Assembly (NCBI GenBank): GCA_010093605.1 | Contig: MU004203.1 | Location: 86,156 to 150,155 of the forward strand | Direction of reading: 5' to 3' | DNA: 64,000 bases | Origin: Lophium mytilinum | Taxonomy: Eukaryota > Ascomycota > Dothideomycetes > Mytilinidiales > Mytilinidiaceae | Shown here: in pieces, positions 3,944-55,191 of the stretch | Numbering within the stretch: the stretch's first letter is position 1 | How the letters are laid out: each line of letters begins with the position of its first letter | Program-made: the position numbers and the translations under genes | The notes under the pieces: model-generated | What the model was told of the DNA's origin: nothing | The model's input: the letters and a program-made list of their open reading frames with translations, nothing else | Databases searched by the model: none

Positions 3944-6900
3944 ATGCGGAACTGTCTCCGAGAGAACCCCAAGAAGCGCCAACTTCAAGGCAGCCTGCCC
4001 AATTCACTCAAGCCAGCGGTCGATATAGAAGCGCCAGCGACGTCTTCCGAAAATATGACCGTACCGACCGAGAGGACCACTGGACGCGCAAAAAAAGCCG
4101 CCGCGAGACAAGAGCCGCCAATACCGCTACTCAATATAGTGCCACTCGCCAACATCTTAGCTAGAGCAGCGGCAGAAGATTCTGCTCCGCTGCCTCTACA
4201 GGTCGGCACAGGAGGAGGCAGCTGTGGAGGAAGCAATTTGCGCGGCGAAGGCATGACGGCCCATGAGATCCGTCAGATGAAAAACGCGCGCCTCTTGAAT
4301 CAAAAGAACCACGCCGTACTACCCAGACTGCTTAGCCTTGGAGAGCAACAGGCACTGGCGAGGTACAATGCAAAAGATGAGGATGAGGCCGAAGATAATG
4401 TAGCGACATTGGAGCGCCAGCGAGAAGCGCGACTTGTAAGTAACTCCATCCTGTGCTGATTTGAAGGCGATGTTGACAATACTAAGGCCCTTGACCCTCT
4501 CAAGCCCCGTGCGACTCCTACCCCCTCATTTCGTCCGGGACAAAACGATACAGCCTACATAAGCAGTATCTATAGAGAACTCATTTTTGGGGAGAGACGC
4601 GTGCAGGATGACTTAGCTGTGGCTTCTAAGTCAGCTATCCCTGACTTTGGTGGATCCTCGTCCAGTACCCCAAAAGTCGCCAACAGTGCCATTCCCACTA
4701 CCGATCAAGACCAAGAACTTCCTCGCGAGAACGAACTCCCAGATCCCGAGGATGTCCTATCAGCCGCGGAGAGAATAGAGCGAAACGAACACTACACTCC
4801 GTGCGGTCGACTCGGCGATGAAGATGGATCCCTTGGTTGGAACTTCGAGCGCGACTGGACTATTGGCAACTACCTCGAGGACGCCTCGTTCATCTCGTAC
4901 ACGTTCGTCAATCTTCTTCATCAAGACGGGAAGCCTGCCAGACCTGCGAGGCCAACACCAGCCTCAGCCCACCCCACTGACACTGGAAACATCTTCGACC
5001 CGACCCTTATACCTGTAATCAACGTCGGTCATGTCGATCCAAGCTTTTACGGAGATGGAATCGTTGTTGATTCCAAGGGGATCATAATGGGTTGCTGGAA
5101 GTGGGAGGAATCTGGGGAGGATCTCTACGTCTGGTGTGACGACTGCAAGTCCAAGGGGGTGCATGATCATTGGTACCAACCGCGGTGTTATTACACCTGT
5201 CCTCATTTCAACGAGCTTGAGGATGCCACCAAAGAGCGCGAGCGTTTCAGGATGGTTTCTCGCCATCACGGTCTCCAAATGCCCTTCGGGTGCAAGATGT
5301 CCAAAGATGTCGCGCGGAGGTTTGGGGTGATCTATGATCATGCCAAAGCTGTCAATGCCAGCAAGAAAGGCAAGATGGCGATGACAAAGATAGATCTTCA
5401 GACACAAGCTCTCGCCCCTCTACGAAAGTATGGGAATCAACCAGTCCCGTATCAAGCCACCGGGTCCGGTTCTACGCAAGAACCCCAGATGGAGGACATC
5501 TTTGTAAAGGTACCGAAGGACCTGAACACCCTCATGCGTACCGACCTTGTTGAGGAGCAAAGAGTCAACTTCGACTATCTTCTCGAGAGCATCAAACATT
5601 TGCAGAAGCTCCTGGTGCCCATTGAGGAGGCTCTGAATGATATGCCTATTCAAGATCGGCCAAAATTCAGAATGCCTCCACATCTGGGTCATCGCAGCTC
5701 GTCTGTTCCGATGATTGGACTGCGTCGGCTCTTCACAAAAGTAACTGGAGACAGTATCTGGGCTGAGCTGTATGCTCGTCCCCACGTGGCAGTTCCCACG
5801 CTCGTCGAGCTTTTGCGGGAAAAGCTAGCAAGCGTGCAGCAGAAGAAGGCGGAGCGAAAGGGGGAGTGGCACATTGCAGAGCGTCAGCTCCGAGAGCTGA
5901 TGAACAAGTGGCGCGAGTATCACAACCGCCAGCTCGCGGCTTCGTTGGCCGCGATTGGCGAGAGTGGTGCGTCGACTAACGACAATGTGCTCGCCATTGA
6001 GGACCCTTCCGATCAGGCCGTGGAGAGTCAGGATATAGGTGCTATTAATACCGTTGCCACGAATGACGGGAACGAAGTAGAAGAAGTTGACACACCCGCC
6101 ATCGAAGGGACAGCAAAGGAGCTCGACGAAGAGGCTACCGAGCTACCTACCAGGTTCGAAAATACCAGTGGGCCGGGAGAACCCCATGACATGGAAGTAG
6201 ATACTGTGGGTACTGGAACCACACCAACAGGCATTAGCCTTGAACCACAACCTATATTCAACTTCGCCAGAGACACAAAGAAGAGCAGGGGGCTCTTGGC
6301 TTCAAGAGTCACCGTGGCGACCGCAGGGTCTGGCATGAAGTCCAGCAAAACCAGCACCGGAAAGACTGCGAATAGCAAGGTCCTTGGCAACCATGTGGTG
6401 AAACAAAAGCTAGCTCCTTCTAGGATGGGCCTCCGGAGTCTAGCAAAAGCTGCACATGCTGCTACAGTCGAGGACCGCAACGCAGTGGGAGAAAATGTCA
6501 GTGAACCCGCCGCTTCTGAAGAAGAAACTGGCGCAGCAGCTGTCACTCTAGCTGAGTCGGAAGACGCGGTTGGTACTGAAACCGACCGTGATGATCGCCC
6601 AGATACTGACACGGGGTCTGCGCGACCTACCCTTATTGTGGTTCTCAAGATAGGCCACAGTACCGTAGCTCAGCAGCTTCTGAGATTGGCCACGGACAGC
6701 GCCGTCAACGTGGACAGCCCAAGGATCGAGGGCCGAGTTCTTCGCAAGAGGAAGAGACACCCGCTCGACGAGGGAGAGGACAATGAGTCTAGCATAAACT
6801 CGGAAAGCATTCACGGAGGTCATGCTAACGATGGCGTCAACGCCCTCTCCGAAAACGGTGGCCAAGGGTCAACAGGAGTGAAGGTTAATGCTTTCAAAGA

Positions 6901-7984
6901 GAAGGCGCCGCCTCGAAAGAAAGCAAAAACCAGTGCTCAGTCAGCTGGGCCGGCTCCGGGCATGGTCAATCCGGTACTTGCTCAGCAAGGCACTACACAA
7001 AATGCGTCAGAAGTCCCCAGGGACAACGCACAGCTGGATATGAACGAAGAAGGCGATACCGCCGAAGACGACAAGGAATGGGAGATTATCACCCCCGGTG
7101 AGGGCAGGTACAAAATCAACGAAGAACGCTCCATGACTCTCCAGCGGCGTCACAAGATTTCTGGAACCGTGCAGTCCATCACCTACACCCATGCCGATGA
7201 CGTAGACTGGGCTTTGAACATGTGGATCACGCGACTGAACGCCTGGCGGCGTCAGTGCATTCGCCGCTTTGGCGGTGAGCACGTAGCGGGTTACGACCGA
7301 CAGAAGTGGTCCAAGGAGGACATCGCTTGGGTCAGGGATGCCATCGCCAAGCAGTTTGATAGGCGAGAGAAGGCAGGGGAGAACGTGAAGAAGAGTCCTC
7401 CTTGGGCCGAGATTTACATGGCATTCGTGGTAGCCCATCCTGGGACTCATCGCACCCAGAGGGCTCTGTCGTGCATGGCTATGCGGCAGATTATGCCGGA
7501 GCTGGTGCTAGCTAAGAAGAACAAGCATGAGGGGGAGGGACAGGCGGATACCGCTGAGGGAGACATAGATTCTGATGAGGGTGAGAGTGACGACGCGGAA
7601 GACGAGGCGGAGGTGGGAGACATCGCGCCGAACAACAATGCCAGGACAACCCCTTTCGTCGCCGTGCGTCGAGAGGGCGATCGAGTGAAGCTCCGCCTTA
7701 CGGGCTTGAGGTCGCTCGCGAACTCTGACAAAGTCGAACGTAGAAACGGAGAACGTTCCTCCAGTCGTGTTCAAATGCAGCTCATTGTAGCAAATGCCAG
7801 GAATGGACCTGTTGGCGGTAAGAAGCGCAAGATCGCAAATCGCGATGATGAGTATATCTCTCCCGCGCGGTCGTCAAAGAGAATAAAGACGGCATCCGCT
7901 AAGGCTGATGACGACGAAGTGATGGAAGATGGTGGAGTCGGAGCGAATGCACACGAGAACGAAGAGGTCGAAGAAGAATTGTAG
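3944..7984 (+). CDS. Family gene A: GDG-core / CxxC / SANT-like nuclear protein, 1329 aa
   Basis: Model: exon 1 3944-4435, intron 4436-4486 (51 nt, GTAAGT donor, phase 0), exon 2 4487-7984. The join keeps the frame, and ATG 3944 is the first in-frame ATG. Function is not recognised. Visible parts: a basic, Ala/Pro-rich N-terminus; residues about 300-450 carry the family core ERDWTIGNYLED, FYGDGIVVDSKGIIMGCWK (about 352), a cysteine cluster WCDDC...CYYTC (380-401) and RMVSRHHGLQMPFG (about 418). A Leu/Glu-rich, probably helical segment (about 510-650) follows, then a long acidic/Ser-Thr linker with basic clusters such as RKKAKTS. The C-terminal Myb/SANT-like block (about 1050-1170) has RRHKISG, VDWALNMWITRLNAWRRQ, WSKEDIAWV and HPGTHRTQRAL. 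The tail is acidic. Basic clusters and the SANT-like block suggest a nuclear, chromatin- or DNA-associated role; that is inference. Closest relative in the window by eye is gene B. Confidence 0.88.
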
Positions 7985-10827: not shown

Positions 10828-10879
10828 GGTTCGTGAAATATCACATAAAGAGATCCTACGCGTACACCCAGCTAACCAG

Positions 10880-11562: not shown

Positions 11563-13848
11563 GGTGGCTTGGAGGAGGGATGGGGTGAGGAGGACGGTTT
11601 GGGTTTTTCTTTTGGATAGTGTTTCGGTTTGGAATAATGGAAAAGGTCTGAGGACCGTTGTTTCTCTGCGCAAGATCATTGCACAGTGCATATGTGGTGA
11701 TTTATAATGAGGTCGTGATACATTGTTGCCGCTGTTTGAAGCGCGTTGATCGCAGTTTGGATCATCTTGAGCTGATGCTTCATTTACTAACGCTGAATCA
11801 GAGCGAAGTATCTAGGATAGGCATTCATACAGGAGCTTTAGCTTGGCTAACTTCAGGTAATGGTATTCGTCGATCACGATTAGTAGTCAGGTTTGAGTTT
11901 GGCGTGAGCGACGAGCCATGGTTGACGTATGGACCGGTCCAACCTAGTATCAACCTCAAGCAAACTGCAACTCGGATAGGGGGAGCGATAAGATTGATAT
12001 GGTTTTCTTTCCTGTATCACCCAAGGCTTAATCATACAACTGTTTCTACGACCCCAAAAGACCGGGACTCGCCAGCCAACTTCGTGATCACCCCGCGAGC
12101 GAATTTCCAATCAACCAAGATCATGATCATCTAGTAATTTAAAACAGGGATAACTGAAGAGCTAACTGTCTCGTCCCCTCTGCCTCGTCCTTTGTCGCTC
12201 GTTTTCTGAACAGCATCCTCATGTACTCCACTCGATCCCACGTCCGCTCCAATCCGCCATCGGCGACCAACACCACTGCGGTAGTTTCCTTACCTTGGTC
12301 GAAACTGTGGATATATACGCAGAAAGGATAGTCGTATCTTCGGACTGCGAAGAGCCTATGAATAGTCCGCGATAGTGGACGAGGTGCCGCTTGGGAAGCA
12401 GCGGAGGCCACCTGAGATGAATTCTCGAACAGACCATCGAGTCAACGCGGTTGAGGTCTGGATGTTGCATCGTCGCAAGCGACGCGTTGAGAAGGTGGGT
12501 AGGTTGGTTAATATACTCGGATGGATGGCAGGGAGCTCACAAGGTACGCTGTCGCTGTTCGAACCGAATCAGCCCTCCTGTTCACCAGACAGTTTTTCCT
12601 TTGCTGAGCGCGATGCCTAGGCTAGTATGCCTGCGTCGTGGTGTTTCCATGACTTTACCGACGACACTGCTCTAACGAACCCTCTCAATCCCTTCTTTAT
12701 GAGCTTCGAGATTACTTAGGTGTTGCCGGAGAACTACAAATCTCAACTTATCGTCGAATTGAGGAGGATAATCGCTGAGTTAGCCTCCATCCATGCCCCT
12801 GGAAAAGATATCTTTGACATGCACCGTACGTAATCGCGCCGACCCCCGACAAGAAGTCTTTCCTCGACTCCCATTACGTGCTCAGCACTACCGGTCCCAT
12901 CATAGTGCGGTGAGGTAGACAGAAATGTGGTTGGAAAAAGGACAAGAAAGAAAGAAGAAAGTAAAAGGATAGTACGCCTGACACATCTCTCGTTAGCTTT
13001 AATTAATCTACCGACGTTGCTTCCTATTGACAAATGCGGTCTCTAAAGGAGCCCTACACATTGATTAGATAGAACAGATGGGCTGAGACTGCCCCCGCAG
13101 ATTGAGAGACGCTCTAGAAAAGCTGAAGCAGAAATGGAGTTTGACGGTACCCAGTGGCAAGTGCGCGATGTTAGTCTTCTATCATAACCTCGACTCATAT
13201 CTAAATAAAGACACTTTCGAAAGCCATGGGAATTAAACGGGTGTGGAGAAGTAGATTGACCCGCCAATTTTTCTACCACAGTCCCAGCTTCCCAACCCTG
13301 GCAAGTCTCAACACACCTGTCCAACATTCCAGTTTTAACCGCCGTCGTCCGACATGACATAGTAGAAATACCGTAAATAGTTGCCTTAGTCATGGCTATC
13401 AGCTGCAAAAGGCTTCACAGGAGGGAAGGTACAGTCCAGTGAGAAGAATAACAGGGAATTGGTATGTTGTTGTGTTGAACGTCGAATTAGCAACGGGGGG
13501 AACTTCTAGCCAGTGCGAGATATTAGTGCGACTTATTCGCTATGCCTGATTCAAGCTTCAATAGTATCTTTATGCTATTGTCATTCTGTATCATGATCAA
13601 TTGCCGTCATCTTGTTGTAAATTGTTACCATTCCTCCGCATCTCCATCACTCGTCCAGGTAATTAGGCAATGGAGGCCTCGCTCAATGCCAGTCGGCATG
13701 TCAGCCGCTTTGCTTTCCCAAACCCCCGATTTTCCGAGCTCTCCCCCACTCGGTGGATCCCCTCTCGCAACATTGGATCATGTCTTATTAGATGAGGGCA
13801 GGGATCAGCGCTTGTGGAGATGGTATCAATGAGGTGTGATTTGCATAC
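11563..13848. other. No firm gene; one weak minus-strand frame
   Basis: No recognisable domain. A minus-strand frame at 12139-12411 (DYPFCVYIHSFDQGKETTA..., 90 codons) looks mildly protein-like and contains a GTAAGG that could be a donor site. I cannot assign it. The rest shows only short overlapping frames. Confidence 0.35.
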
Positions 13849-26666: not shown

Positions 26667-29600
26667 CTAAAGCTCGTCCTCCATGCTTTCGCCATTTCCT
26701 TCATTTGCAGCACTCCAATCTGGCATCTCCTCATCCTCGCCTTCGACATGGCCCGTGGAGGTCCACTCCCGGACCACAAAGATGAAGCGCTCTCCTTCTT
26801 GGCGAACAGTGATTATTGGACAATCAAGGGTGGTGTTCTCTTCAGATTGAGTGGGAGAAACGTTATCGGTAGGCGCAGTAGAGGCTTCACCATTCGTAGG
26901 ATCTCCGACGCTGATGCCTGCGTCAGCACTTGTGGACTCGGAGTTGTCGTTAACATCCGTAAGGTCGACAGTATCCGCTTCCCGTTCCACGTTCTGCTCA
27001 CCTCCCCGGCCGTCATTCCTGAAGACCTTCATGAAGCGGATGCACTTGGTTTCGAACCCTCTCCATGTGCGTGTCTTCTCTCCAAACTTCGCTTGGAAGC
27101 GCTTGAACATTGCCACCCAGCCAGGATAGGCCCTAGACGCCGCTTCACCTCCAGGCATATTCTGAACTTCTCTTCGGAACTCCGTCTCAATCCAATCCAG
27201 CTCCTCCGGACTCCAGAGGCGGCGGTCATAGCCGGCAATGCGACTGCCACCGCAACGGCGGATGTATAGGCGTCGCCAGCTATTGATGATGGTGATCCAA
27301 TCTTGGTTGGACCAATCCACCTCGTCTGCGTGCTTGTATCGCCAGATCACCACTTCCTGGGTGATCTTATGCCTCCGGCGGACAACTATATCTCTTGGTT
27401 GGTCACGCTCGTACGCAGGGCCGTCGGCATCTAGTATCTCCCAGTTCGCCTTGTCCTCGTCTGAAAGTCTCTCATCTTCATCACCCTCATTGGCGAGGAT
27501 TGACAGTGTCGAGACACCTCCGGCGCCAACCGAGCCTTCGTCAAGTGCGTTGGAGGAGACCTGTGCACTACCGGAAGGGCCCGCTTGGGCGGTTTCAGTG
27601 TCCAGTCTAGCCTTTTTGCGGGCCGGCGCCTGAGTATTTCGAGCTGCCCGAGGCCTAAGCACTCTTCCAGTATGTCCTCTATCTTCTGTGCCACCTTGGG
27701 TCACGTCAGATTCGTGACAACCCTCGTTGTTGGGGCCATTGTTTTCAGCTGGCATTCGCTCTTCATCATTCTCGTCGAGGGACAGACCCCTCTTCCGCTT
27801 TCCAAGATTTGTCCTGCTTTCAATCGGCGCGGACGTAGTGGTTGCGTTTTCTGTAAGCCTAGTCGAAGGAGGCTGCAGGTTAGGGTTGGCGATACCAGTA
27901 CTTGTCCCTTGATCAGCTATGTCCATTCGTTCGCCAGCGGCTTCACTTCCTCCTCTGGAAACAACTTCGGCCCCACGAGAAGAACCTCCAGTATTGTTAT
28001 TCGATTGGCTGCTGGTGAGTGACTCGATATGGTGTTCACGAACGGGCATTGAAGAGGTGATGTTATCCAAGTTAGGAACACTCCTGTTGAGTGGGGCTGT
28101 GGGCAAGGTACTCGGCAGTTCCTCAAACGGGTAGAGATGCTTAAACATATCACGAAACCGATCTGCGTAGGCTTTGCCATTTGGCCGGGCCTGAGCTAAG
28201 GCGATCCTGTCCAGAGTCGTGGCGTCCTCAGTGATAAGTGTAGCTTGCGTCTCCTGAATGCGCTCATCTTCCTTAGACAGCACATAATGAATGCTCCTCT
28301 GAAGGTCGGCCGGATTGAAGCCACCTAGGAATGGTATAGGATACACGGCATCGTATAGACTGAGGGCCGCTTGGTTCAGAGACCCGGTGAAATGTTTCAA
28401 GACGGCGGGCATCCTGTCATCCACAAAGCGAGGTCCGGGTCCCCTTTGGTATTCTGTCTCAGTGACCGGAGATTTCCTATTGTGTGATTCTGGAGCCTGT
28501 ATGAACGCTGAGGGTATCTTCTCTTCAGCAGATCGACGGCCACTTCGACGCTGAAATTGGGGAGGCACAGCCATTGGCAATGGCTGGTCGTAGTCTACCC
28601 GCTCCTTGTGAGACTTGACACTCTCCTCAACAATTTTGACCTGTGCAAGCATACGAGCCTCGTCTGCGGCTTTTTGGGTGGTGAATCGACGAGTATTTCT
28701 CGCAATCGCTGCGTTGTCCTGATTTCTAGTCCTCTGAGCCTCTTCATGCTGCCGAGCAAATGTGCTCTCGATACGGTCAAGGTGATCTTGACGCTCCTGG
28801 ATCCAGTCCTGTTTCAAGTCCTGGATTCTTTTCTTGAGGCCCTCTAGCTTATTCTGCATACCCTCAAGCACGATCGGTATCATCAAAACAGGTTGTCGTT
28901 GGATTTCGATCATGAGTTCGTCCCCTGGGTCTTTGCCGTACACGTCGCGGAATACCATTCTAGGCAAAGCCTCGCTGGTCCCCGTGAAGTCTGCGGGAAT
29001 AATCATGAAGCGTCGCTTCTCAGGGGCGGTCTGGTTAATCTGATCATTCACACGCCGGAGAAGTGGTATCATCTTCTCACAGCGGTGCATCGTGATCCAC
29101 ACAAATTCTTCCTCGTCTTGGACCGGATCTCCATCTCTGTGTACTCGGAAGTCTGGATCCGCAACATCTGGCTTGAGCAAATGCGCAGTCTTCTTGAGAT
29201 CCTCGGCCGCACGTCCGTTCCGCACTGCCTCTGTGTGGTTGTACTCGGTTCCAAGCTCACGTAGCTCGTTTGGAGAAATGGCCATCTGCCCGGGCAGCTT
29301 GAGGGCGTCGTGAAAGGACACCGCACGATATTTACCGCTATATACGACAAGGTCCGGCGTTGGATTCTCGTAATACTGACAAGCAAAATGGCATCGCTTG
29401 ACAGTTCGACCGTAGCCCTTGGCAAACTGCTTGTTCTTCCCGTACAGATATCTACATTTCTTACACGGCTTGTACGCTACGGTGAGCGGGCAGTACTTCC
29501 ATGTACCAACAAGCTGGCCGTCGGCATCGGCCATGACGCCGTCTCCTAGACCACCAGGCTGAAGACGGCCGTCATTAACGATGTTTATCTTGGTTTTGTT

Positions 29601-30776
29601 GTCGTTCGACGAACTCGAAGGTTCGCTCGGCATGGGGAGGCCTTCACCGGACTCTGTTATAGGGTCCGTTACTTGGAAGTGCTCCTGCTCGATGAAGGTA
29701 ACGTTCTCCAGGTAGCGTCCAACAGTCCAATCCTTCTCAAAAAGCTTCCCGATCGCTTCCGCCCCTTCAAGCTCTTTCCCAGTCTGTATGGCGTGTCGCA
29801 GAGCGACCGAATACTCGTCAGGGTGAATTGGTAGATCATTAGGCTCTGGCCCATCCGGTGCGGCGACAGTCAGTTGTGGCCAGTTCTGATTTGGCTTGGG
29901 AAGAAAGACTACATCTTCTGCTGTTCCGAGGACACTACGAAGCTGGTGAATGTTAGATGGAACTATGGGAGAGCCACGGAAAGGGCAAACACTTACATCA
30001 GTCGCGTAGGCTATCGCGAGACGAGTCGTCGCAGCATCCTGGGCGCCCTGGACATGGACGTCGTTCCCCACGGCCTCTTTCTGTAAAGCATGCCGGATAT
30101 CTAGTGGTAGTTCGGTTGGCACACTCGCCGCGTCCGCCGCCCATCGCGCCATTCTCCTCTCATCGCGACCTTCCGCGGTATTGGGGTCTGCCATCTCGTC
30201 ATCTTTCCTGGCCTTAGCGGTGGGCTTCCGTTCGCGTCGTGGGCGTAGGTCTGCTTGAACAGCGTCTGCATTGTCCTTCTGATCTGTTCCTTTTTGGTCC
30301 TCCTTCAAGTTCTTTGATTTTGACTTCTTTAGCGCAGCTACATCACCCTTAGTCGTGGTTGCGGCCTTTTCTGGGGACTTGGTGGTGAGTGTCCTGGCGA
30401 TCCTTCTACCGCGCGCAACAGTTTCGATAGCGACGACAGCAGCATCCTCCATGAGGTGATCTTCTCCCACATGGGTGGTAGCAATTTGGTTTTGCGCGAG
30501 AGTGCTAGGTTGCGCGACTCCAGTCGTATGGGTACCAGCGCTTTGGACAGCGCGCGTCGGGTTCTAATTGCGGAGGTCAGCTTCATCTTTGCCATCGCTG
30601 GAAGGGTATTGTGTACTCACCGGAAGCTGGATGGGTCCCGTGTTGCCAACCTTGGCCCTTTTGCTGCCCTTCGCCTTCGGTAATGCTGTCGCATTGTTCT
30701 GCAACATCGGAGGATTGGCTGGCGCATCTTCCTGCGCCTTTCGCTTGCGCAGGCGCGCACCTGTAGTCTCTTCCAT
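26667..30776 (-). CDS. Family gene B: GDG-core / CxxC / SANT-like nuclear protein, 1332 aa
   Basis: Model (minus): exon 1 30776-30621, intron 30620-30564 (57 nt; GTGAGT donor, GCTGAC branch, TAG acceptor), exon 2 30563-29997, intron 29996-29943 (54 nt; GTAAGT, CTAAC branch, CAG), exon 3 29942-26667. Both introns are phase 0. The second has no stop, so the frame also reads through it. Start ATG 30776 gives MEETTGARLRKRKAQEDAPA. Layout: basic N-terminus; family core EKDWTVGRYLENVTFIE, GLGDGVMADADGQLVGTWK (about 372), cysteines PCKKC...CHFAC (about 397-424), RAVSFHDALKLPG; a Gln/Glu-rich probable coiled coil (about 600-720); a disordered linker; a C-terminal SANT-like block (about 1090-1215) with RRRHKITQ, VDWSNQDWITIINSWRRLYI, GYDRRLWSPEELDWIE; an acidic end. 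Function unknown; nuclear by composition. Confidence 0.9.
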
Positions 30777-32532: not shown

Positions 32533-33276
32533 CTACTCTGACTGATCGTCGTCGGCATTTTGAGCGTCTTCTTCTGCCTCGGAGGTTGGGAGAGAGGACA
32601 GAGAACTGCTCGTCGTGCTCTGGGTGTGGCTGGGGGGCTCGAAGCCGAACATTCTTCTCAGGTTGTTAGCCCTAATGCGGTCCTCTTCGTGGACGTGTCT
32701 CAACACAGCTTGGGCGGTCGGATCGTTCTCCCAAGTTAAGGCATGGGTAGCGTTGGATTCATTGGCGCGAGGCTTCAGCTTGCGTGCGTTCCGGGCCTGT
32801 CTGGCCTGCTCTTCGATGTATGTTGGACCAAAGCCCTCGAGAATGTCTGTGCGGATGGAGAAGCCGTAGGGGTTCTGAAGGGCATTGTGAAGGGCGACCT
32901 CTCGGGGCTGGTACTGGATGGAGTCCGCGCGTCCCTTTTCTTTCAGTTCTGGGCCAACAAGATGCTCTTTGCGCCAGCATCCAATGATCTCTCCTGTCAA
33001 GTCTGCAATCACGCCGTGTCCGAAGTTCCGCTGATCGAGACCGCCGGTGTTGTATATCGTCAAGCATGTAGTTGCTGTTGCTTGGGTTGAGAGGGGAGTA
33101 GGCCCCTGGGCGGGAATGATGGCGATTTGATCAAGAGGGATAAATGTGGCACCCTCAAGCTTCGTAGCATCTTCTTGATGGACGGCTACATCTTGACACC
33201 AGTTTGTTCCCACAGCCTGAGGTGCCGATATGACTGCAGATGGCCCAATCCCCGTAGTTTTCGATGTTAAGTCCAT
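32533..33276 (-). CDS. Family gene C: short core-only member, 247 aa
   Basis: Single-exon frame; ATG 33276 gives MDLTSKTTGIGPSAV. An in-frame extension to 33327 lacks an ATG. The family core is clear: RNFGHGVIADLTGEIIGCW at about 83-101, and PREVALHNALQNPYGF at about 124-139, equivalent to RMVSRHHGLQMPFG in gene A and SRLVALHNNL in gene E. The GDG is GHG here. The cysteine cluster found in A, B and E between these two blocks is missing, as are the helical middle and the SANT-like domain. It ends in a Ser-rich then acidic tail. It could act as a core-only partner or competitor of the long paralogs, or be a shortened non-functional copy. The frame is intact with no break, which favours a working gene. 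Confidence 0.8.
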   Translation of the reverse strand: MDLTSKTTGIGPSAVISAPQAVGTNWCQDVAVHQEDATKLEGATFIPLDQIAIIPAQGPTPLSTQATATTCLTIYNTGGLDQRNFGHGVIADLTGEIIGCWRKEHLVGPELKEKGRADSIQYQPREVALHNALQNPYGFSIRTDILEGFGPTYIEEQARQARNARKLKPRANESNATHALTWENDPTAQAVLRHVHEEDRIRANNLRRMFGFEPPSHTQSTTSSSLSSLPTSEAEEDAQNADDDQSE

Positions 33277-40484: not shown

Positions 40485-41570
40485 ATGCCCCCAAAACGCA
40501 GCTCCCGCGGCAAAGCCCGCGCCGAACCCTCCAATCCCGCTCCTGTAAGCCTCCCCTTTGCTATCATCTTAACTAGAGCTGACTAGCCTCAGCCCCGCGT
40601 CCGACCAGGAATTCTGCCCCGTCACCGGGGCCGCGCGTATTTCACCGACGAATTGCTGCCCTACGACCCCGACGCCACGCGCTACATCTATAGAAACTTT
40701 GGACGGTACCCGGAGGCGGAGTGGCGCGCTGAGGAGGTGGCGTCTTCGCGCCAAAGAGACGTAATGGGCGATATGTTGGCTTCTGTGGGGTTTGAGGCTA
40801 CGATGGCTGAAGGGTTGCACTATTTGAACACTTTGCCCGCAACTCACGCACGCGTTGTGCCTAGCCGCGCACGCCCTGGCCGCCTTGTCGTGCCTGTTGT
40901 TCCTGTTGTCGCTGCCGTAGAGGAGGAAGAGGGTGGAGAAATGGTGGAAGAAGAAGCGGAAGAGGCCGTAGAAGAAGCAGAGAAAGCTGAAGAAGAGGAG
41001 AAAGAGGAGTTAGAAGAAGCGGAACAAGAGGAGGGAGAGGAAGAGAACGATGACGACGAAGAGGACGAAGACACCACCACCGCCGGCCCCAGCACGTCCA
41101 AGAAGTTCTGCCCTAGTGAACAAAACCGCGACTTCAAGCAGAACCCCCTGGTACCCGGCGTTCCTGATCCGGCCCTCTTCGTAGTACGAGGGACCTTCAA
41201 GGGCGTTGATACCACCAGAACCTACCCCGGCGTGGCGAACTTCGACTGGAACAACAAGAAGTCGGTCAAGACGCTGCTTAACTGGCGTAGCCAGATCTAC
41301 CTACGCGCTGGGGCCTCTAATAAGAAGGTGAGGTTCTTCTCCGCTGCCGAGACCCAGTGGTTGGAACACTACTGGACTCAAGTCCTCAGCGACGTGCGCA
41401 GCGACCCGGCGGCTGGATTGCCATCCCAGGCCGATATCACTGCCGCCTTCAACGCGGCCTTTCCGGCCTCCCACCGCACCCAAGCGTCGGTCAGCAGTGC
41501 GATCAGTCGGCCCGGATCTAAGTGCAGGGGTCTGAAGGAAGAGGCGGAGAGGGTGATTCGGGACCGTTGA
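40485..41570 (+). CDS. Family gene D: short SANT-like-only member, 345 aa
   Basis: Exon 1 40485-40544 (MPPKRSSRGKARAEPSNPAP), intron 40545-40592 (48 nt; GTAAGC donor, GCTGAC branch, CAG acceptor, phase 0), exon 2 40593-41570. The N-terminus is basic, like gene E's MAPRKRKQ. Residues about 115-175 are an almost pure Glu/Ala/Asp run. The C-terminal block (about 235-330) has VANFDWNNKKSVKTLLNWRS, FSAAETQWLEHYW and ASHRTQASVSSAISRPGSK. It aligns with VDWALNMWITRLNAWRRQ, WSKEDIAWV and HPGTHRTQRALSCMAMR of gene A. The GDG core and cysteine cluster are absent, so D is the complement of C, which has only the core. By analogy with SANT/Myb domains the block may bind DNA or histone tails; that is inference. 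Confidence 0.82.
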
Positions 41571-45849: not shown

Positions 45850-46562
45850 ATTTAAGGCGAAGGGAGGCCAGAATATTAAGGTTTATAACCATAGGTTCAG
45901 GTCAGATCTCTTTACTTAGTATTATGGGTTGGGGATCTCGCTGCGAGTAGTGCACCCCCACTCAATCAGCCCACGCTCGCCGCACGCCTCCACGGCAACC
46001 ATCTATGCAACCACCGACTCGCCGCCCTACCTAGGCTGGCTCATTATCGGCCTCCACAACGCGACTTGTGTAATTACTATGCGGCGGCACATCAACCACG
46101 AGTCTTACAGTCCATCTCGTCCTTTCTCCTGCAGACAGTGAGCAAGAAGTCCTCCACTCATTTTAAGAATCGGATGCCCCCTAATAGTACCCACGACGCC
46201 GGCAAACATAGTCCCGACAGCAGCAGCTGCCCCGTGCGCATGGTGTTTTGTCGCCAGCTGCCCCTCCTCTGACCCCGACGCCGCCACCACCCGCCCTCAC
46301 TGAACAGCACGAGGCCATCGCAGCCCCTGAGCAGCATGGTAAGCTCATCTCCCTATAGCGACAGCGACCATCAACTTACAGACGTCCAAGAGACAGGTGA
46401 GCGGCACCCCGAGGCGCGTTTTCGCAGCGTCTGCCGCATTGTGCGGGCAAAACCCTCTCCCCCGAGTTCTCCGCCGCATCGCATCTTTGACTCCACAACG
46501 ACCAAGCCCGCGCACTTCGCGGCATCTACCATCCCTTTTGACTGGATGGATACCTGCTAGCT
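45850..46562. other. No gene recognised
   Basis: Only short frames. No repeat recognised. Confidence 0.4.
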
Positions 46563-47690
46563 AGGCTACCCTTCCAGGTGATGTTGAGTGATCAAGATGG
46601 GAACCCGAGGGATTCCATATTCGGGTGCCTGAACCTTTGTCCTGGTAATGTACAGCCATTGTTTGTCCTACGGTCGATACCGCTGAAATCACCCTACCTT
46701 TTGGCTAGGGGGACACCTGCTGGCTGGGCCACCTTCCACGATGGTATCGATCGATCAAGAGTAAAACCCCTAGCTGAACACCTGCTAGCTAGGGCACCCT
46801 TTACAGTGACGTCAAGCGATCAAGAATGGACACGGAGGAGTCCTATGTCCGACTGTCCACACTAGCGTCCTGGTACTGCAGCAGACAAAACAATGCAAAT
46901 GTCGGCCCAGTGAACGCTGGGCTGCCTTTTGCCTGGCTGAACTGCTGCTGGCTGGAACACCCTCTACGGTGGCATAGATCGATTAAGAAGGAAAGCCGGG
47001 GAGTCCTATATTCGGGTGCTGAAGTCAGTGTGCTGGTAATTCAGCAAAGGCTAGAACGCAAAGATCGATGCAATGGAAGGAGGCTGCCTTTTGACTGGTG
47101 AACACCTGCTGGCTGAGCCGCCCTCTACGGTGGTATCAATTGATCAAGAAGGAAAGCTGGAGAGTTCATATCATGGTGCCTATACTTGCGTTCCGGTACT
47201 GTATGCAAAGGCTAATGCAGTGGAAATTAGGTTGACCTATGACTGGCTAAGTACCTGCTGGCTGAGCTACCCTTTACGGTGGTGTCGATCGATCAACATT
47301 GGTGGCCGATAAGTCCAATATTCAGGTGCCCAAGCTTGTGCCCTGGTATTGCATAGCTATTGTGCCTCCGCCGAAGGCGTGTGAGCAGGGCGCAAAACCC
47401 TTTCTCTTCTGTTAGTTGATGCTTTTCCGTAAGTGCAAGCATGCTGTCTCTTCCCCGGGCTTCGCCGCCCTCTAGACCCTCCTTCGCGAGTCTCGAGGTC
47501 AGGCTGCTGATGACAGGCCATAAGTCTAGGCACATTGCTTGGGGGATCTCTTGGGTTTCGACGGTCTAAACGCAATGTCGAGGCTCATGAAGTGCAGATC
47601 GAACTGTCGCTTGACCGATTAGCTGCTTAGCAGCTATGCTACCCCCTACAGTGGTGTGGAGTGAGTAATATTAAAGCGCGGCAGTGACAG
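46563..47690 (-). repeat. Degenerate tandem array, about 150-160 bp unit (reverse orientation)
   Basis: About six units (near 46563, 46735, 46950, 47110, 47261, 47630) with the plus-strand pattern ACACCTGCTGGCTGRRCxACC followed by CTCTACGGTGGTATCGATCGA. The reverse complement gives CCACCGTAGAG, then CCAGCCAGCAG and the GCCAGGCAAAAGGCAGCC core. This matches the core of the arrays at 55-61.7 kb, so it is the same family in opposite orientation. Confidence 0.65.
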
Positions 47691-48119: not shown

Positions 48120-49125
48120 TTGTCGTGTTTGCTTGTGGAATATCCCCTGGCGTTCGTAACTCAGGTTTGTCCCGAAAACGTGTCCTGATATCAAACGAGG
48201 AGATTCGAACGCCCTCGAAACTACAGAATCTCATCTTTCTTCTCGCAATAGCCACTAGACACTCAAGGCTATATCGCGGTGGTCAAAGAGCTTACGCGCG
48301 CCTCCTGATATCGACTCCGCCGCCATTTTCCGCCTCCAAACACGAGTCCATCCCGACATCGCGATTTGAACGCTCTTGACTCTGCGGAAACGTACCTGTC
48401 TACTCGCAATAGCAGGTAGACACTTACGGCTATATCAGAGTGTTCAAAGAGCTGCCTCTGCTCTCCTGATATTGACTCCACCTCGATTTCAACCTCCAAA
48501 ACGCATCTCTATATCCAATAACGTGAATTGAATACCTTCGACACTGCAGATTTATGCCTCTCTACTCAAAACAGCAGGTAGACACTTGGTCATATATCAG
48601 AGTGTTCATAGAGCTACCTGTCGCCTCCTAATATTGGCTCCACCTGAATTTCCGCCTCCTAAACGTGTCTCCATACCAGCGACGTGCTTTGAACACCCTC
48701 GATACTGCAGAATCGCACCTGTCCGCTCCCAACTGTATGTAGGGTCTCCCACTTATATCAGGGGGTCCAAAGAGCTGACCCTTGCATCCTAGTTTCAACC
48801 CCACCTCGATCCTCCCCTCAAAACGCATCTCCACATTAACGACGCGATTTCAATACGCCCGACACTGCACAATCGCATCTATCCTCTCGGAACAGTGTGC
48901 AGCGTTTTACGCCTATATTAGGACGTCCAAAAGGCAGACGATTGCCTCCTTGTTTCAACTCCCACTCCATCCTGCTCCGAAAACACGTCTCTATACCAAC
49001 GACGCGATTCTTACACCCTCAACACCGCAGAACGGCATCTGTCCGTTCGCAACCACAGGTAGGGTCTCCCCCCTATATTAGGGCCTTCAGAGAGCTGACG
49101 ATCGCCTCCTAGTTTCAAATTCCTC
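48120..49125 (+). repeat. Tandem array, about 160-bp unit, upstream of gene E
   Basis: Six to seven units (acceptor landmarks near 48297, 48461, 48615, 48782, 48941, 49103). Each has GCCTCCTRATATYGACTCC or a variant, then CCTCGAYACTGCAGAATCGC, then a TATATCAG/TATATTAG element and AAAGAGCTGAC. The unit core differs from the flanking arrays. The array stops about 360 bp before the gene E start codon. Confidence 0.7.
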
Positions 49126-49485
49126 TCCAAATCCCTTCCAAACACCTCAACTTCGTAAGTTCACATCCCCTCTTCGTCGCCGCCCTCTACACATTGTAAA
49201 ACCACACTATACCCCTCCCCCTACCTTCATCTTGTGAATTCACCATCCAGAGGTCCAAATCTAGGCAGCAGAGGCCTGGGCGCGAATTATCTCGCCCTCA
49301 GAGTATTCACTACGAGGCAGCACAACCCAGGTCTTCCAAATACCTCGACCTCCCACCTACAGCTTCTCGTGGGATTTTCATTCATCATCTCCCCACCCAC
49401 CACACCACACCACCTAGCAAACTTTGCAATTGCATCACAACTTCACTCACAATACTGACACGGCTTCAGCCTGTCTTGATAGAAC
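49126..49485 (+). promoter_or_regulatory. Presumed promoter/leader of gene E
   Basis: C- and CT-rich stretches lead to the start context AGAACATGGCC. No defined element beyond pyrimidine tracts. Confidence 0.35.
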
Positions 49486-52400
49486 ATGGCCCCCCGCAAG
49501 CGCAAGCAAGCGGAGGTCGAAGACGAAATCGAGAAGCCCGGCGAGACCACTCAGACTGGAAGGCGTACGAAGAAGGCGAAGACTAGGGATGAAAGGGCGA
49601 CAGCTGAGGTACGAAAGGGTCGCCACTCCGTCAACATCAGCGGACAAGCTAACAACAGCCAACAGGCTGATCCAACCAAGACCGGCCCTGTCGCTGCTGG
49701 TGGAGTTACCAAGTCCTCCTTGATAGTCAAGCTTCCTGCGAAAACCTCCTCGACACGCCCCCTTCCTCCACAAGCTCTTCCAATCGTCATTTCCGACGAG
49801 GAAGAAGACGTAGATATGCTAGGCACGCAGCCTCCCCCTCCTCCCCCTCAACAGCGCGTGACTCGCGCGCGAGCGCGCGCGGCGTCTGAAACACCAGACA
49901 TCATGGCACCAGAAGCACCTACCATCATGGCATCACAAGCACCAGCCATCGTGGCACCTCCAGCACCGCCTGTTGTCGAGCCAGTGACTTCCATAAGGCC
50001 TCCTCCAGCACGGCCTATCATCTCACCAATGGGACCCCCAGAGCCTGCTCCAACTCGCGTGCTCCGGGACCGAAAGGCCAAACAGCCCCCCAAAACACTC
50101 CCCCAATCCGCCACCCCTGATGTAGACCAACACTTCGTCGCCGTCGTGGCAACCATCGACGCCGCAACACAGAGCTCCGGTGATGATGAACGCGCAATAC
50201 CCCCAGATGCTGCCCTAACTGGCAAGTCTCTGGGTGGAAAGGCGAAAGTAGCCTCCAAGCCATCCCCCCAATCCACTACCCATGGCGTAGAGCCAGACTG
50301 GGCCGCACGTCTAGCTGCCAATAGGGCAAAGTTACAAGCCTCCGGTGAAGCAGGCCTCATAATAGCCCCAGGCGCCCCCGCACAATCTTCACTCGCAGCC
50401 GCGCGGGGCGCACAGTCCACCAAATTCCCATCACTCGCGAAAGTGGCCGCTGAGTCAGCCCTTAGCGAGGCGTCTTCCGCACCAACCCCAACACAGCGCG
50501 CTCCTCGCATCACCCGAGCTGCAAACAAACGCGCCATCATGGACCCCAAAGTCCGAGCCGCGGAGGCGGAGCAGCAGAAGGCGCTGAGGCAGCGGAACAC
50601 GCAGCGTCTGGGTCGCGTCGAGACCCACCTCAAGAACTTGGCGGGCAGTGGGGTCATGGACCCAGCAGAGCTCCCGGAAGGGCCTCGCGGTAGGGCGAGG
50701 AAGACGAAGAGACCGCCGAAGGATCTCCCCAAGGAGACCGTGCAGGCGCTGGCGAAGACGCAGCCTGCTGGGAAGGCGGAGAAGGTCCGCGAGGACGCTG
50801 TTGCGGCTGCGACAGATGTAAGTATCTCTGTTTTTTCCCCTCTTTATCATGTTGATCATAGTGCTAACAAGACGCAGATGGCAGGAGTCCGAGCTGTTGG
50901 GGTGACACCCACAGCGAGAGTGGCCTTCCTGCCTATCCCCACCGCTGACGACCCCGTCCTTTTTGGGCCAACGAAAGACGGTCCCCAGCCTCTACCCGCC
51001 TCCAAAGATCCTCTGAATTGGACGGCAGCGCGACGACGAGCGGAGAAGATTGGAGAAGAGTCACTGGACCGCAAACTTCGCCTGGGCCTGAGGGCCGAAA
51101 TCGGACTGGCTAGCTACACCACGGTCCACTCCATCGCCCACCTCCTCGACAGCGTCATTTTCATCAAGCATGAAAACCTTGTCGGCATTCACCTCGGCAC
51201 CAAGGCCACGGCATCACAGCGCGGGGATGATTCTCATATCCCTGTTGGAGACGAGGGCCGCCTAGACACCGCGGCGCTTGGAGACGGCATCGTCGTCGAC
51301 AAGAACGGCATGATTGTGGGAACGTACAAGGACATCCAGCTGTGGAACGAGAAGTACAAACCCAGCTGCGACAGCTGCACCGCCAAAGGGAAAGAAGTGT
51401 GTACTTACCATTGCCCGGGCTTCTACGCCGAACCGCTGTTGAAGTACCCAACAACTCCGTCCCGCCTCGTTGCACTCCACAACAACTTGGTAGCATACGG
51501 CATCGACAACCGCATTCATCCGTACGGACTGGAAAAGCTCGGCGAGACATACGACCACGAAGAAACCCTCCGCATCGCGCGCGAACCGATGACGGAGTGG
51601 GTAGAGAACCGGAAGAAGATGACAGCCGGCGAGAGAAAGATCGCCGACGAGAACGACTACAGCAGCTACGGCTATTTCGGTGCTCCCAACTGGGCTGATG
51701 AGGAGCGGATCAGCCTTCAGATCAAAGAGGAAGCATGCAGGTCGATGATCGAACGCCTCCGAAACATGCAGCGCCAGATCGATCTCCTACCGCCAGATCA
51801 GCGACCGAACTTCGTCCCTCCCCCGAACTTCGGCGAAGACCTGTCCGGCGGTCAGAGTGAGCATACCCCCAAACTCGCTCTCCGCAACGCCTGTGGCCGC
51901 GAGTCCGGCAACAAGATGTACAGCGAGCTCCTCGCGCGAGCCTCGGTTGCTGTTCCTCTCGTGCTGGCTAAGCTCAAGGAGTACTGGGAGTTTCTCAAGG
52001 AATACGACCTCAAATATGTTGAGGCGAGGTTGAGGGCAGACCGAGACTACCGCGCCATGCAGGCATACTGGGCTCTGCATGAAACAGAATCCGCGTACAG
52101 CGTGAGGACCAAGGCACGAAATCTTCGAGCGGCGGATCTCGAGGAGGCTCGAAACGAAGCAGCCGCCAGAACTCCCGAGGAACAAGTAGAATGGGATGAG
52201 GACAACCGTCGCCGAGAACTCCTAGAGGCTCGAGTCCAGGCCGAGAATCGTGGTTTCTCCGTGGAAGAAATGGCACGAGGCTCTCGCATCGACGAGGAAG
52301 CCTTCAACAAGAAAGATGTTGAGCAGTGGGAGATCAGCGCAGCCCACTGTGCCACCAAACTCAGGCTAGAGGGCATGGAGAACCGCAACGGCGCCTTCGC

Positions 52401-55191
52401 TCCGCCAACCGTGGACGACAGCCGCGTAGAATCTCGCCGGCAGTATGAGACATCCTCAGTCCGCTTCGACATGCCCACATTCGGACCTCCGAGCTTTGAC
52501 GACCCCATTCGTTCCGCTTCCGTTCCTTCTGATAAGGACATCGGCTTGTGGGCTAGAACAGACATGCCGATCACCCAAGAGATGGTAAAAGGCCTCCAAA
52601 AGCGTGCGCAAGCTGCCTCAGATGTCGCTAAGGCGCTGAATGCTCTGGATACTCCTCCTCCCCAGCCCGTGCAGCGAGAGACTAACGCGGAGAGAGTTGC
52701 CCGTCTGAAGCGAGAATATGAGGCGCGCCAGGCGGACATCAAGAAGTTCGAGGCTAATGCTCAGGTTTCCGACCTTCGCGGAACCGAGCCAGAGAGCGAC
52801 GCGCAAACACCAAACATCGACCTCATCAAGACGACGGCCTCTTCATCAAAAGAGACCCCGCAAGAGTTGAAGGCCCGTCTGAAGCGCGAATATGAAGCGC
52901 GCCAGGCTGAGATCAAGAGCTACGAGGCGAATCCTACACAGTCCGACGTCCGTGGTGATGCTTCCACTGCCTCTGGAGCTCCCAACGTGCACATCACTGG
53001 AACCGGAACCTCCAACGCCATTGTCATCAACGAGGATGATACCCTAAACACTCCCACCGTCACCGGCGAAGACCCAAACACCCCCACCATCACGACCTTC
53101 CCCCGTTCGAAACCAGAGTGGCGAGAGGCCAAGACTGGAGCCAAAACTCGCTCCGGCAAGACGTTGGGCAGCCGAGTCCGAGAGAGCATCGAATACCTTC
53201 CAGACATGCTCAAGAGGCACCATGAACGAGATCACAGCCTCGACACCGCGATCGTCGATTCCACAGACGCTTCCACAGATTCCAGAGACGCTTCTACAGA
53301 TGCTAGAGACGCTTCTACAGATTCCCGAATGCCCGATAACTCGGAGAAGACTCGCTTGGTTACTGTGCCTGTACCAGCGATTGATGCTACCCCGCTCGCC
53401 ACGTCTGCTGAGCAAGGAAATGGCGGTGAGACTCCAGAGGATGTTGTTCAGCAGGCCTTCCCCGAATTGGATGTGGCCATGAGCGATACCCCAGAATTCG
53501 CTGCCATCGATGCGCCGACGCCGACTTCATTAGATCTTGTGAAGGCTATGGATACGCAACTCGAGAAGGCTCCAGCAGTTTCGAAGGCTATAGAGACGGC
53601 ACTCAAGAAGCTCCCAGCGGCTGCCATCGAGAAACCAAAGGCCCTTCCAAAGATGAGCAATGGAGGCGCCATGGCAATGCCATCCGGTTTGGTGATGTTC
53701 CGTCGTTCCACTCCTGCTCTACTTAGCGGAGATGGCTCACTCCAGACTGATGAGTCCGAGAATGTCGAGATGGGAGGTACCGAAGATGCCCTGCCCACCA
53801 AAGCGAAAGGAAAAGCGAAGGGAAAGGAGCCAGCACATTTCGCACCCGTCAGCGCCACCGCCTCATCAAGCAAGATCGAGACCGGCGAGTCCAGCAAGGC
53901 CGGTGCAAGCGGCGCATCCCACAAGCCAGTTGAGACCAACCCAGCGAACATGACCGAAGCCGAGAGAGTTCTCCATGCGTTGAATGAGGGCGCGCTGCAG
54001 AAAGCGATCCAGGACAGCATGAAGGCATCCCATCCGGCCGCGACGACGCTCCAGATTGCAGGCTGGACTCCCGTAAATCCCCCAACTCCTGGCGCTGCCG
54101 GAGTGGAGCAGGATGAAATGGAAGACTACCTGTACGGCGCAGAGAACCTGGAAGAGGATGGCGAGATTTATGTGCCGGACTCAGATCCCGAAGACGACGA
54201 CGACGAGATGAAGGACGACGACGACGAACTAGACTCCCACCACTCCGACTCCGATTTCGACAGCGACAACGACTCCGGTCCCCCCAAGGGCGGCGCCGCG
54301 CTGAACAAAGGCAAGGGAAAAGCTCCAGCCCCAGCCCCCGCGAAACCCAAGCCCACCTACACAGGCAAAGGCAAAGGCAAAGCCGAAGACCCCCCGTCCG
54401 ACGACGACGACGACCTGGACGACCCCGCCCCCGGCAAGAAGCCCAAAGGCCCCTACAAGTTCCTCGCCATCGACCCGCACGAGTACGACGAGCAGGGCGT
54501 GCGCCGCACCAACCCCGACGGCAGCGCCATCCCCTACTTCCGCTTCACGCCCAACGTCGACGACACCGCGCGCCTGACGATCCGCAAGAAGCACCGCAAG
54601 ACGCTGCGGGAGGAGCCGCCGTACGTGTACAAGCACCTCGCGACCATGGACTTCGCGAACAACCAGCACGTCGTGGACGCGAACAAATGGCGGCGCCAGA
54701 TAATGCGGCGCTCGTACCCGGAAGATCGCGTATATGAAATACGCGACGGGTACGAGGCCGAAGAGCGGGAGTTCATGCGGCAGTACGTCCGCGCAGACAT
54801 CGCGGCGCGTGGCGCGGAGACGGTGCGGCGGCGGCCGTTGTGGGAGAACTTGTTCCAAGCGTTCTGCCGCCACTACGTCGGTAATACGCGTAGCAAGCCG
54901 GGGTTGACGTCGTGGTGTGGCCGTGACCAGCAGATCGCGGACATGAAGGGCCTGCCGGTCAAGAAGGCCGGTGTTTCGGCCAAGCAGGCTAAGCTGAACC
55001 TGCTTGCGGCGGTTAAGGCGGAGGGGGAGGGACAGGACGCCGAGGCCCCTCCGCCGCCGCCGAAGCAGGGGATGAAGAGGAAGAAGGAGGAGGATGAGGA
55101 GGATAAGGACGACGACGACGACGACTCTTTCCATCCGGGGAAGAAGGGGAAGAAGGCGAGGAAGGGGAAGAAGCGGGCGAAGAAGGAGTAG
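49486..55191 (+). CDS. Family gene E: largest GDG-core / CxxC / SANT-like protein, 1862 aa
   Basis: Model: exon 1 49486-49608, intron 49609-49665 (57 nt; GTACGA, GCTAAC branch, CAG), exon 2 49666-50817, intron 50818-50877 (60 nt; GTAAGT, GCTAAC branch, CAG), exon 3 50878-55191. Both introns are phase 0 and stop-free, so the unspliced frame also stays open (1901 aa). The second sits after ...AATD, the same place as gene B's second intron (...YATD). Layout: basic start MAPRKRKQAEVEDE; Pro/Ala-rich disorder; core LGDGIVVDKNGMIVGTYKD (about 557), cysteines SCDSC...CTYHC (about 587-607), RLVALHNNL; helical region to about 900. Two copies of KREYEARQA[D/E]IK follow, then ASTDSRDASTD repeats, acidic and KGKGK tracts, and the C-terminal block (about 1645-1780) with IRKKHRKTLREEPPYVYKHL and NKWRRQIMRRS. 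The tail is Lys/Asp-rich. The SANT-like block is more diverged than in A and B. Confidence 0.9.
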   Translation: MAPRKRKQAEVEDEIEKPGETTQTGRRTKKAKTRDERATAEVRKGRHSVNISGQANNSQQADPTKTGPVAAGGVTKSSLIVKLPAKTSSTRPLPPQALPIVISDEEEDVDMLGTQPPPPPPQQRVTRARARAASETPDIMAPEAPTIMASQAPAIVAPPAPPVVEPVTSIRPPPARPIISPMGPPEPAPTRVLRDRKAKQPPKTLPQSATPDVDQHFVAVVATIDAATQSSGDDERAIPPDAALTGKSLGGKAKVASKPSPQSTTHGVEPDWAARLAANRAKLQASGEAGLIIAPGAPAQSSLAAARGAQSTKFPSLAKVAAESALSEASSAPTPTQRAPRITRAANKRAIMDPKVRAAEAEQQKALRQRNTQRLGRVETHLKNLAGSGVMDPAELPEGPRGRARKTKRPPKDLPKETVQALAKTQPAGKAEKVREDAVAAATDVSISVFSPLYHVDHSANKTQMAGVRAVGVTPTARVAFLPIPTADDPVLFGPTKDGPQPLPASKDPLNWTAARRRAEKIGEESLDRKLRLGLRAEIGLASYTTVHSIAHLLDSVIFIKHENLVGIHLGTKATASQRGDDSHIPVGDEGRLDTAALGDGIVVDKNGMIVGTYKDIQLWNEKYKPSCDSCTAKGKEVCTYHCPGFYAEPLLKYPTTPSRLVALHNNLVAYGIDNRIHPYGLEKLGETYDHEETLRIAREPMTEWVENRKKMTAGERKIADENDYSSYGYFGAPNWADEERISLQIKEEACRSMIERLRNMQRQIDLLPPDQRPNFVPPPNFGEDLSGGQSEHTPKLALRNACGRESGNKMYSELLARASVAVPLVLAKLKEYWEFLKEYDLKYVEARLRADRDYRAMQAYWALHETESAYSVRTKARNLRAADLEEARNEAAARTPEEQVEWDEDNRRRELLEARVQAENRGFSVEEMARGSRIDEEAFNKKDVEQWEISAAHCATKLRLEGMENRNGAFAPPTVDDSRVESRRQYETSSVRFDMPTFGPPSFDDPIRSASVPSDKDIGLWARTDMPITQEMVKGLQKRAQAASDVAKALNALDTPPPQPVQRETNAERVARLKREYEARQADIKKFEANAQVSDLRGTEPESDAQTPNIDLIKTTASSSKETPQELKARLKREYEARQAEIKSYEANPTQSDVRGDASTASGAPNVHITGTGTSNAIVINEDDTLNTPTVTGEDPNTPTITTFPRSKPEWREAKTGAKTRSGKTLGSRVRESIEYLPDMLKRHHERDHSLDTAIVDSTDASTDSRDASTDARDASTDSRMPDNSEKTRLVTVPVPAIDATPLATSAEQGNGGETPEDVVQQAFPELDVAMSDTPEFAAIDAPTPTSLDLVKAMDTQLEKAPAVSKAIETALKKLPAAAIEKPKALPKMSNGGAMAMPSGLVMFRRSTPALLSGDGSLQTDESENVEMGGTEDALPTKAKGKAKGKEPAHFAPVSATASSSKIETGESSKAGASGASHKPVETNPANMTEAERVLHALNEGALQKAIQDSMKASHPAATTLQIAGWTPVNPPTPGAAGVEQDEMEDYLYGAENLEEDGEIYVPDSDPEDDDDEMKDDDDELDSHHSDSDFDSDNDSGPPKGGAALNKGKGKAPAPAPAKPKPTYTGKGKGKAEDPPSDDDDDLDDPAPGKKPKGPYKFLAIDPHEYDEQGVRRTNPDGSAIPYFRFTPNVDDTARLTIRKKHRKTLREEPPYVYKHLATMDFANNQHVVDANKWRRQIMRRSYPEDRVYEIRDGYEAEEREFMRQYVRADIAARGAETVRRRPLWENLFQAFCRHYVGNTRSKPGLTSWCGRDQQIADMKGLPVKKAGVSAKQAKLNLLAAVKAEGEGQDAEAPPPPPKQGMKRKKEEDEEDKDDDDDDSFHPGKKGKKARKGKKRAKKE

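Follow-up and report, generated by a model that had tools for sequence, protein, structure and literature searches.

A candidate Sin3-type HDAC-interaction domain in a family of predicted non-Sin3 proteins of the fungus Lophium mytilinum

The window analysed here, a stretch of 64,000 nucleotides from the dothideomycete Lophium mytilinum (contig MU004203.1 of GenBank assembly GCA_010093605.1, positions 86,156 to 150,155; GC content 52%), carries five related genes, designated A to E, whose features are collected in Table 1. The predicted introns of A, B and D, which are 48-57 nt long, were placed from GT..AG signals and the reading frame, and not from RNA. A preliminary description had presented all five genes as intact members of one family; our comparisons instead recognise three complete members (A, B and E) and two of half length (C and D). 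The product of D consists of an acidic tract followed by the C-terminal block, and C and D, which lie on opposite strands and each have their own start and stop, complement each other as two halves of the full-length architecture. Gene E contains a charged unit (LKREYEARQA..) that occurs twice at 52699-52955 (+), with a spacing of 174 nt and a DNA identity of 78%.

Table 1. Coordinates of the five genes and of their domains and acidic pairs within the window
Feature	Position	Strand	Details
Gene A	3944..7984	+	1329 aa; exons 3944-4435, 4487-7984; predicted 51-nt intron 4436-4486
A GDG core	4844..5404	+	residues 284-470; family alignments, profile
A CxxC...CxxxC cluster	5135..5200	+	residues 381-402, inside core
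A Sin3 HID-like domain	5540..5899	+	residues 516-635; phmmer to yeast SIN3, profile, Foldseek
A Glu520-Glu521	5552..5557	+	aligned on yeast Sin3 Glu811-Glu812 (pairwise alignment, A versus yeast SIN3)
A C-terminal block	7115..7486	+	residues 1041-1164; predicted beta-hairpin (low confidence) and helices
Gene B	26667..30776	-	1350 aa; exons 30776-30621, 30563-26667; predicted 57-nt intron 30564-30620
B GDG core	29175..29741	-	CxxC...CxxxC at 29379-29465
B Sin3 HID-like domain	28770..29129	-	residues 531-650; phmmer to SIN3B, profile
B Asp535-Glu536	29112..29117	-	acidic pair in A/B/E HID alignment; register uncertain by one residue
B C-terminal block	27024..27404	-	family alignment, profile
Gene C	32533..33276	-	247 aa; core only, core 32761-33180
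Gene D	40485..41570	+	345 aa; exons 40485-40544, 40593-41570; predicted 48-nt intron 40545-40592
D C-terminal block	41220..41519	+	residues 230-329; family alignment, profile
Gene E	49486..55191	+	1901 aa; intronless
E GDG core	51112..51630	+	CxxC...CxxxC at 51367-51414
E Sin3 HID-like domain	51688..52065	+	residues 735-860; family profile, shuffle test versus yeast HID
E Asp738-Glu739	51697..51702	+	acidic pair in A/B/E HID alignment
E C-terminal block	54559..54936	+	family alignment, profile

Several other features share the window with these genes. Two U6 snRNA genes, at 1656-1805 (-) and 25732-25880 (+), stand in opposite orientation and are more than 90% alike; in both, ACAGAGAAG is followed immediately by some 50 nt of inserted sequence that resembles a spliceosomal intron interrupting U6. 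Tandem arrays, all degenerate and with repeat periods near 108, 150 and 161-164 nt, occupy 46545-47298, 48192-49129 and 55235-57498, with further pieces between 58051 and 61662, and a 70-nt word recurs at 17 places (16 in 58.0-61.5 kb and one at 42.2 kb) with 60-89% identity to the reference copy. The relic of an AAA_11-type helicase is recognisable at 60333-60791 (+; Pfam E 3.2e-10), and an amino acid permease is represented at 13666-14043 (-; Pfam E 5e-10) by a relic or an exon.

Comparison of the predicted proteins with phmmer, in a database of the five sequences, recovered homology across the core, middle and C-terminus of A, B and E (E-values of 5.2e-56 for A-B, 2.4e-22 for A-E and 2.8e-32 for B-E), with identities among the three of 21-32% across the core, the domain that follows it and the C-terminal block. 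The two half-length members were linked to them by profiles from which each had been left out: among the 2020 ORF fragments of the window, C was found by the core profile (E 5.5e-15; 52.8 bits, the best of 2000 shuffles reaching 6.6) and D by the C-terminal profile (E 1.9e-8; 31.1 bits, with 9.1 as the highest score among 2000 shuffles). The latter result bears out the relationship proposed earlier between the C-terminal blocks of D and E and those of A and B. The set of blocks originally ascribed to all five proteins holds as a whole for A, B and E, which share the core, the cysteine cluster and the C-terminal block, but not for C, which has the core only, or D, which has the C-terminal block only: in C the CxxC/CxxxC cluster and any C-terminal match are absent and GHG takes the place of GDG, and no core match was found in D. 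A further relic of the family that had been suspected near 2.5 kb is not supported, the fragment at 2488-2637 scoring within chance (the core profile of A, B and E gave E 1.3, and the profile that also included C gave 0.22). Outside the window, scans of viral contigs with the family alignments A1, A2 and A3 yielded 52, 29 and 138 pattern matches respectively, and a scan of prokaryotic and viral genome contigs with alignment A4 yielded 306, none of which was confirmed by tblastn. When the upstream 700 bp of the five genes were searched for shared promoter motifs, D-E was the only one of the 10 pairs to rise above the null (13 versus 12).

To judge from the sequence comparisons, A, B and E are true, full-length and anciently diverged homologues. 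In each of the 15 pairwise comparisons of blocks, 60-75% of the aligned third codon positions differ, and change at first and second positions is lower in every case, by a margin of just 0.01 for A-E in the C-terminal block; hence the duplications look old and the proteins constrained, and the copies look like old paralogues rather than the product of a recent local burst. That the genes might be decaying pseudogenes devoid of present function, a suggestion prompted by the shortness of C and D and by the relics in the region, is most improbable given the open frames of 1329, 1350 and 1901 codons and this unequal divergence of the codon positions. It is also very unlikely, if not to the same degree, that they are selfish or mobile-element genes, spread by transposition and recruiting HDACs for their own ends: the region is repeat-rich, relics of other genes adjoin, and certain Nuwa DNA transposon families are described as encoding a Myb/SANT protein next to the transposase (PMC12730594), but inverted repeats within 1.5 kb of the five genes do not exceed those of shuffled sequence, neither the five proteins nor 20 ORFs chosen from the 185 listed have a transposase among their Pfam matches, and the divergence of the copies is too great for a recent spread. 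A transposon origin was rejected for now on the count of flanking inverted repeats.

The GDG core is predicted by AlphaFold as a mixed beta/alpha structure, in which seven blocks of 10 residues reach a pLDDT of 74-83 and the rest lies lower; the four cysteines of the cluster, which could serve as zinc ligands, are invariant in A, B and E and missing from C. Nothing firm was returned for it in the Pfam, NCBIfam and PDB profile searches or in Foldseek searches of PDB and viral structures. The best NCBIfam score, E 0.0047, is a weak match of one of the four core members to a RiPP repeat model. The sole CBS-type PDB match of the core profile, to the CBS-domain protein 3fhm_A, is the best lead for this domain but is likewise weak (E 0.004 over 111 positions, and 0.16 with a longer profile), and there was no CBS domain among the Pfam matches of the core or in the best 50 of 146 Foldseek rows. 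A TET/JBP-like dioxygenase was also considered for the core and set aside, no supporting evidence having been found.

The conserved C-terminal block displays a pattern of aromatic and arginine residues that is Myb/SANT-like by eye, and had been named in the preliminary description as a SANT/Myb-like domain. The AlphaFold model of this block (overall pLDDT 65.8, pTM 0.49) ends in three well-predicted helices, at 88-107, 118-128 and 136-155, with 10-residue blocks scoring 67 and then 75-92 pLDDT. However, no Myb/SANT domain was detected in Pfam at E <= 10 for any of the four members that carry the block, in the PDB profile searches, or in the best 50 of 709 Foldseek matches, none of the 709 having E <= 0.001; the best NCBIfam score was a weak 0.12. 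The assignment is thus not confirmed, in spite of the three predicted helices.

The family had been described as unrecognised, and for the core and the C-terminus this still holds, in that neither has a credible Pfam match and those in NCBIfam are weak; the region just after the core, in contrast, corresponds to a known domain. In A, B and E the core is separated from the middle by a segment of about 110 residues, whose sequence and predicted fold show it to be a homologue of the HDAC-interaction domain (HID, or "four-helix finger") of Sin3, the feature that lies at about 811-919 of yeast Sin3. A profile of this segment from the three proteins, run against 177,635 distinct PDB sequences, matched 13 at E <= 10, of which nine are Sin3 proteins, namely yeast SIN3 (five versions), Sin3a, Sin3b and the Pst1 and Pst2 of Schizosaccharomyces pombe; these nine have E-values of 5.5e-13 to 1.1e-10 and the other four of 0.31 or above. 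A longer profile of the core and the following region gave 34 PDB sequences at E <= 10, with the same nine at 1.5e-12 to 1.5e-9 and the best match outside Sin3 at 0.16. Single sequences were less uniform in phmmer searches of the PDB: A on its own found yeast SIN3 with E 1e-8, two LC3 fusions (E 0.029 and 0.035) outranking its weakest Sin3 row (Pst1, 0.077), and B on its own found SIN3B with E 2.1e-5 and all nine Sin3 sequences at E <= 0.0027, while E on its own gave no Sin3 match in the whole PDB. Against the yeast HID segment, nonetheless, each real sequence scored above the best of its 5000 shuffles (41.4 versus 8.4 bits for A, 28.3 versus 9.8 for B and 16.3 versus 9.6 for E). Equivalent searches of C and D gave E-values of 180 and 52, that is, no HID.

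Structure prediction pointed in the same direction. An AlphaFold model of the core and HID of A, computed from a four-sequence alignment, has a mean pLDDT of 59.7 and a pTM of 0.39, and its HID blocks, from residue 251 to 360, score 58-89, dropping to 49 and 57 at the edges. In a Foldseek search with this model, rows 1-23 of the best 50 of 146 are all entries of Sin3/HDAC complexes, the best with E 3.6e-6, and each of the 18 matches at E <= 0.001 falls among them. The TM-score to the Sin3A HID of 2n2h is 0.68 when normalised to the target; the rows have TM-scores of 0.22-0.28 when normalised to the query, which is the longer of the two, and several have a large rmsd, in a range of 3.4 to 24.9. 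Pfam registered the domain in one of the three members (A), where PF08295, a model of 98 positions, matched in its positions 63-95 only, with E 0.094. The HID-like domain seems to be missed by Pfam because PF08295 apparently stops when some 30 residues of the first helix have been covered. The link to chromatin that had been proposed for the family is upheld, and on firmer ground than was first offered for it, namely that A, B and E have an HDAC-interaction domain of the Sin3 type.

Examination of individual residues and of the remaining Sin3 features gave a mixed picture. The two "Glu fingers" of the first HID helix (yeast Glu811 and Glu812) have counterparts in A (Glu-Glu) and E (Asp-Glu). 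In B the pair reads Asp-Glu in the A/B/E HID alignment and Gln-Asp in a second alignment, and it is less certain because the register moves by one residue between the two. Pst1 Glu657 and SIN3B Asp457 fall on an invariant Glu, as mapped from profile match coordinates only, and by the HID alignment and match coordinates the third acid of the SIN3B triad (Glu461) has no acidic counterpart, the aligned position being Asn in A, a gap in B and Ser in E. Pfam scans of the five proteins at E <= 1, which for PAH included separate runs on the first exon of each of A, B and D, detected neither PAH domains (PF02671) nor the Sin3 C-terminal region (Sin3a_C/HCR, PF16879). For the N-terminal half of the HID, patterns for its RDxLCxE[IV]LND-type motif matched none of the five proteins, and positions 1-62 of PF08295 are unmatched in A, B and E; nor did inspection of the alignment by eye reveal a gate-loop counterpart conserved among the three. 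On these sequence criteria A, B and E are not Sin3, since the searches recovered no PAH domain, no N-terminal half of the HID and no Sin3 C-terminal region, yet they carry one of the defining modules of Sin3.

The significance of what is kept and what is absent can be gauged from characterised Sin3 complexes. In yeast, Glu811 and Glu812 are described as entering the inositol-phosphate pocket of Rpd3 (PMC10432269). The corresponding acidic role is attributed in human SIN3B to Glu456, Asp457 and Glu461, a charge swap of which compromises HDAC activity (PMC10156912), and in Pst1 to Glu657, the N-terminal HID half of Pst1 also gripping the enzyme through Arg615, Leu618, Ile622, Leu623 and Asp625 (PMC10115800). 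The HID fragment of Sin3A (601-742) is reported to be a helical bundle that binds Suds3, recruitment of HDAC1 to the HID being independent of Suds3 (PMC6295471).

We propose, with a probability of about 0.6, that A, B and E are nuclear corepressor-like proteins other than Sin3 that use the HDAC-docking module of Sin3 to dock a class I HDAC or an Sds3-like partner. By analogy with Sin3, the long first helix would cover the basic patch on a class I deacetylase (orthologous to Rpd3/Clr6/HDAC1), the acidic pair would stand in for inositol phosphate, and an Sds3/Dep1-like helix could be accommodated by the head of the domain. Targeting of the enzyme to DNA, histones or partner proteins may then fall to the GDG core, with its cysteine cluster, and to the helical block at the C-terminus, in place of the PAH domains, while C and D, as half-proteins with the core and the C-terminal block respectively, might have partners in common with the full-length proteins, or compete with them for these, but would not recruit an HDAC. 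Of the roles that we can envisage a corepressor-like tether is the likeliest; docking, activation and targeting are its inferred components.

A doubt as to whether an HID deprived of its N-terminal half can hold the enzyme leaves room for two other roles. In the first, the domain would bind an Sds3/Dep1/PHF12-type helix and not the deacetylase, and the proteins would be adaptors or competitors that tap into Sin3 complexes or disassemble them. The same HID surface is indeed described as holding Sds3 or Dep1 in yeast Rpd3L (PMC10224958) and PHF12 or SDS3 in mammals (PMC10156912), and neither the enzyme-gripping N-terminal half nor the third acidic residue was found; the retention of the enzyme-facing acidic pair in A and E argues to the contrary, and we regard this reading as rather doubtful. 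Less probable still, and in our judgement unlikely, is that the proteins are natural dominant negatives, whose HID docks the HDAC and, without the gate loop, the N-terminal half and the C-terminal region, blocks or mislocalises the enzyme instead of activating it. Here one may point to the SIN3B gate-loop substitution E436A/D437A, which is reported to abolish deacetylation of nucleosomal H3K27 with activity on a small substrate kept (PMC10156912), and to the lack, by eye, of a conserved gate-loop counterpart; however, large conserved extra domains such as the core and the C-terminal block suggest targeting over simple blocking.

Set beside known systems, the corepressor-like proteins proposed here resemble Sin3 itself (yeast Sin3, Pst1/2 of S. 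pombe, SIN3A and SIN3B) in the homologous four-helix finger and in the acidic pair that starts its first helix, which is clear in A and E. They differ from it in that no PAH domain, PF08295 N-terminal half or Sin3a_C/HCR was found in them, and in the addition of the GDG/cysteine core before the HID and of the conserved helical block near the C-terminus. With SMRT, MTA1 and MIDEAS, the SANT-type corepressors that engage class I HDACs via inositol phosphate, they would have in common the recruitment and activation of an HDAC and possibly a SANT-like domain, whereas the contact with the enzyme is predicted to be made by a Sin3-type HID that replaces inositol phosphate and not by SANT plus inositol phosphate (compare the accounts in PMC10156912 and PMC10115800). 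GON4L, compared by description, also combines a Sin3-kind module with a SANT-type domain in a nuclear protein, but the module in GON4L is the PAH domain and that in A, B and E the HID (PMC13212936). The literature examined treats the HID as part of Sin3 itself, and the titles and abstract openings of open-licence papers, in a search that makes for a weak negative, mention neither an HID outside Sin3 nor a family like A, B and E.

A more far-reaching version of the proposal, which we offer tentatively and as a possibility only, is that these genes represent a fungal family whose products recruit HDACs directly, bypassing Sin3. In such a history the four-helix finger would have been taken out of Sin3 and joined to a core with cysteines and to a C-terminus that binds chromatin or DNA, both of them new, with duplication then giving rise to the long-diverged silencers A, B and E and to the split half-proteins C and D as possible antagonists, perhaps a fungal counterpart to an expanding repressor family.

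As they carry the part of Sin3 that grips the deacetylase, A, B and E may be able to silence genes without Sin3. If the HID does sit in a protein devoid of PAH domains, HDAC docking would be a transferable module, and these proteins would be a natural experiment on what share of Sin3 the enzyme requires in order to be bound and activated in the absence of inositol phosphate. The finding would also point to a hidden set of chromatin regulators, which Pfam misses as its Sin3 model seems to stop just inside the helix.
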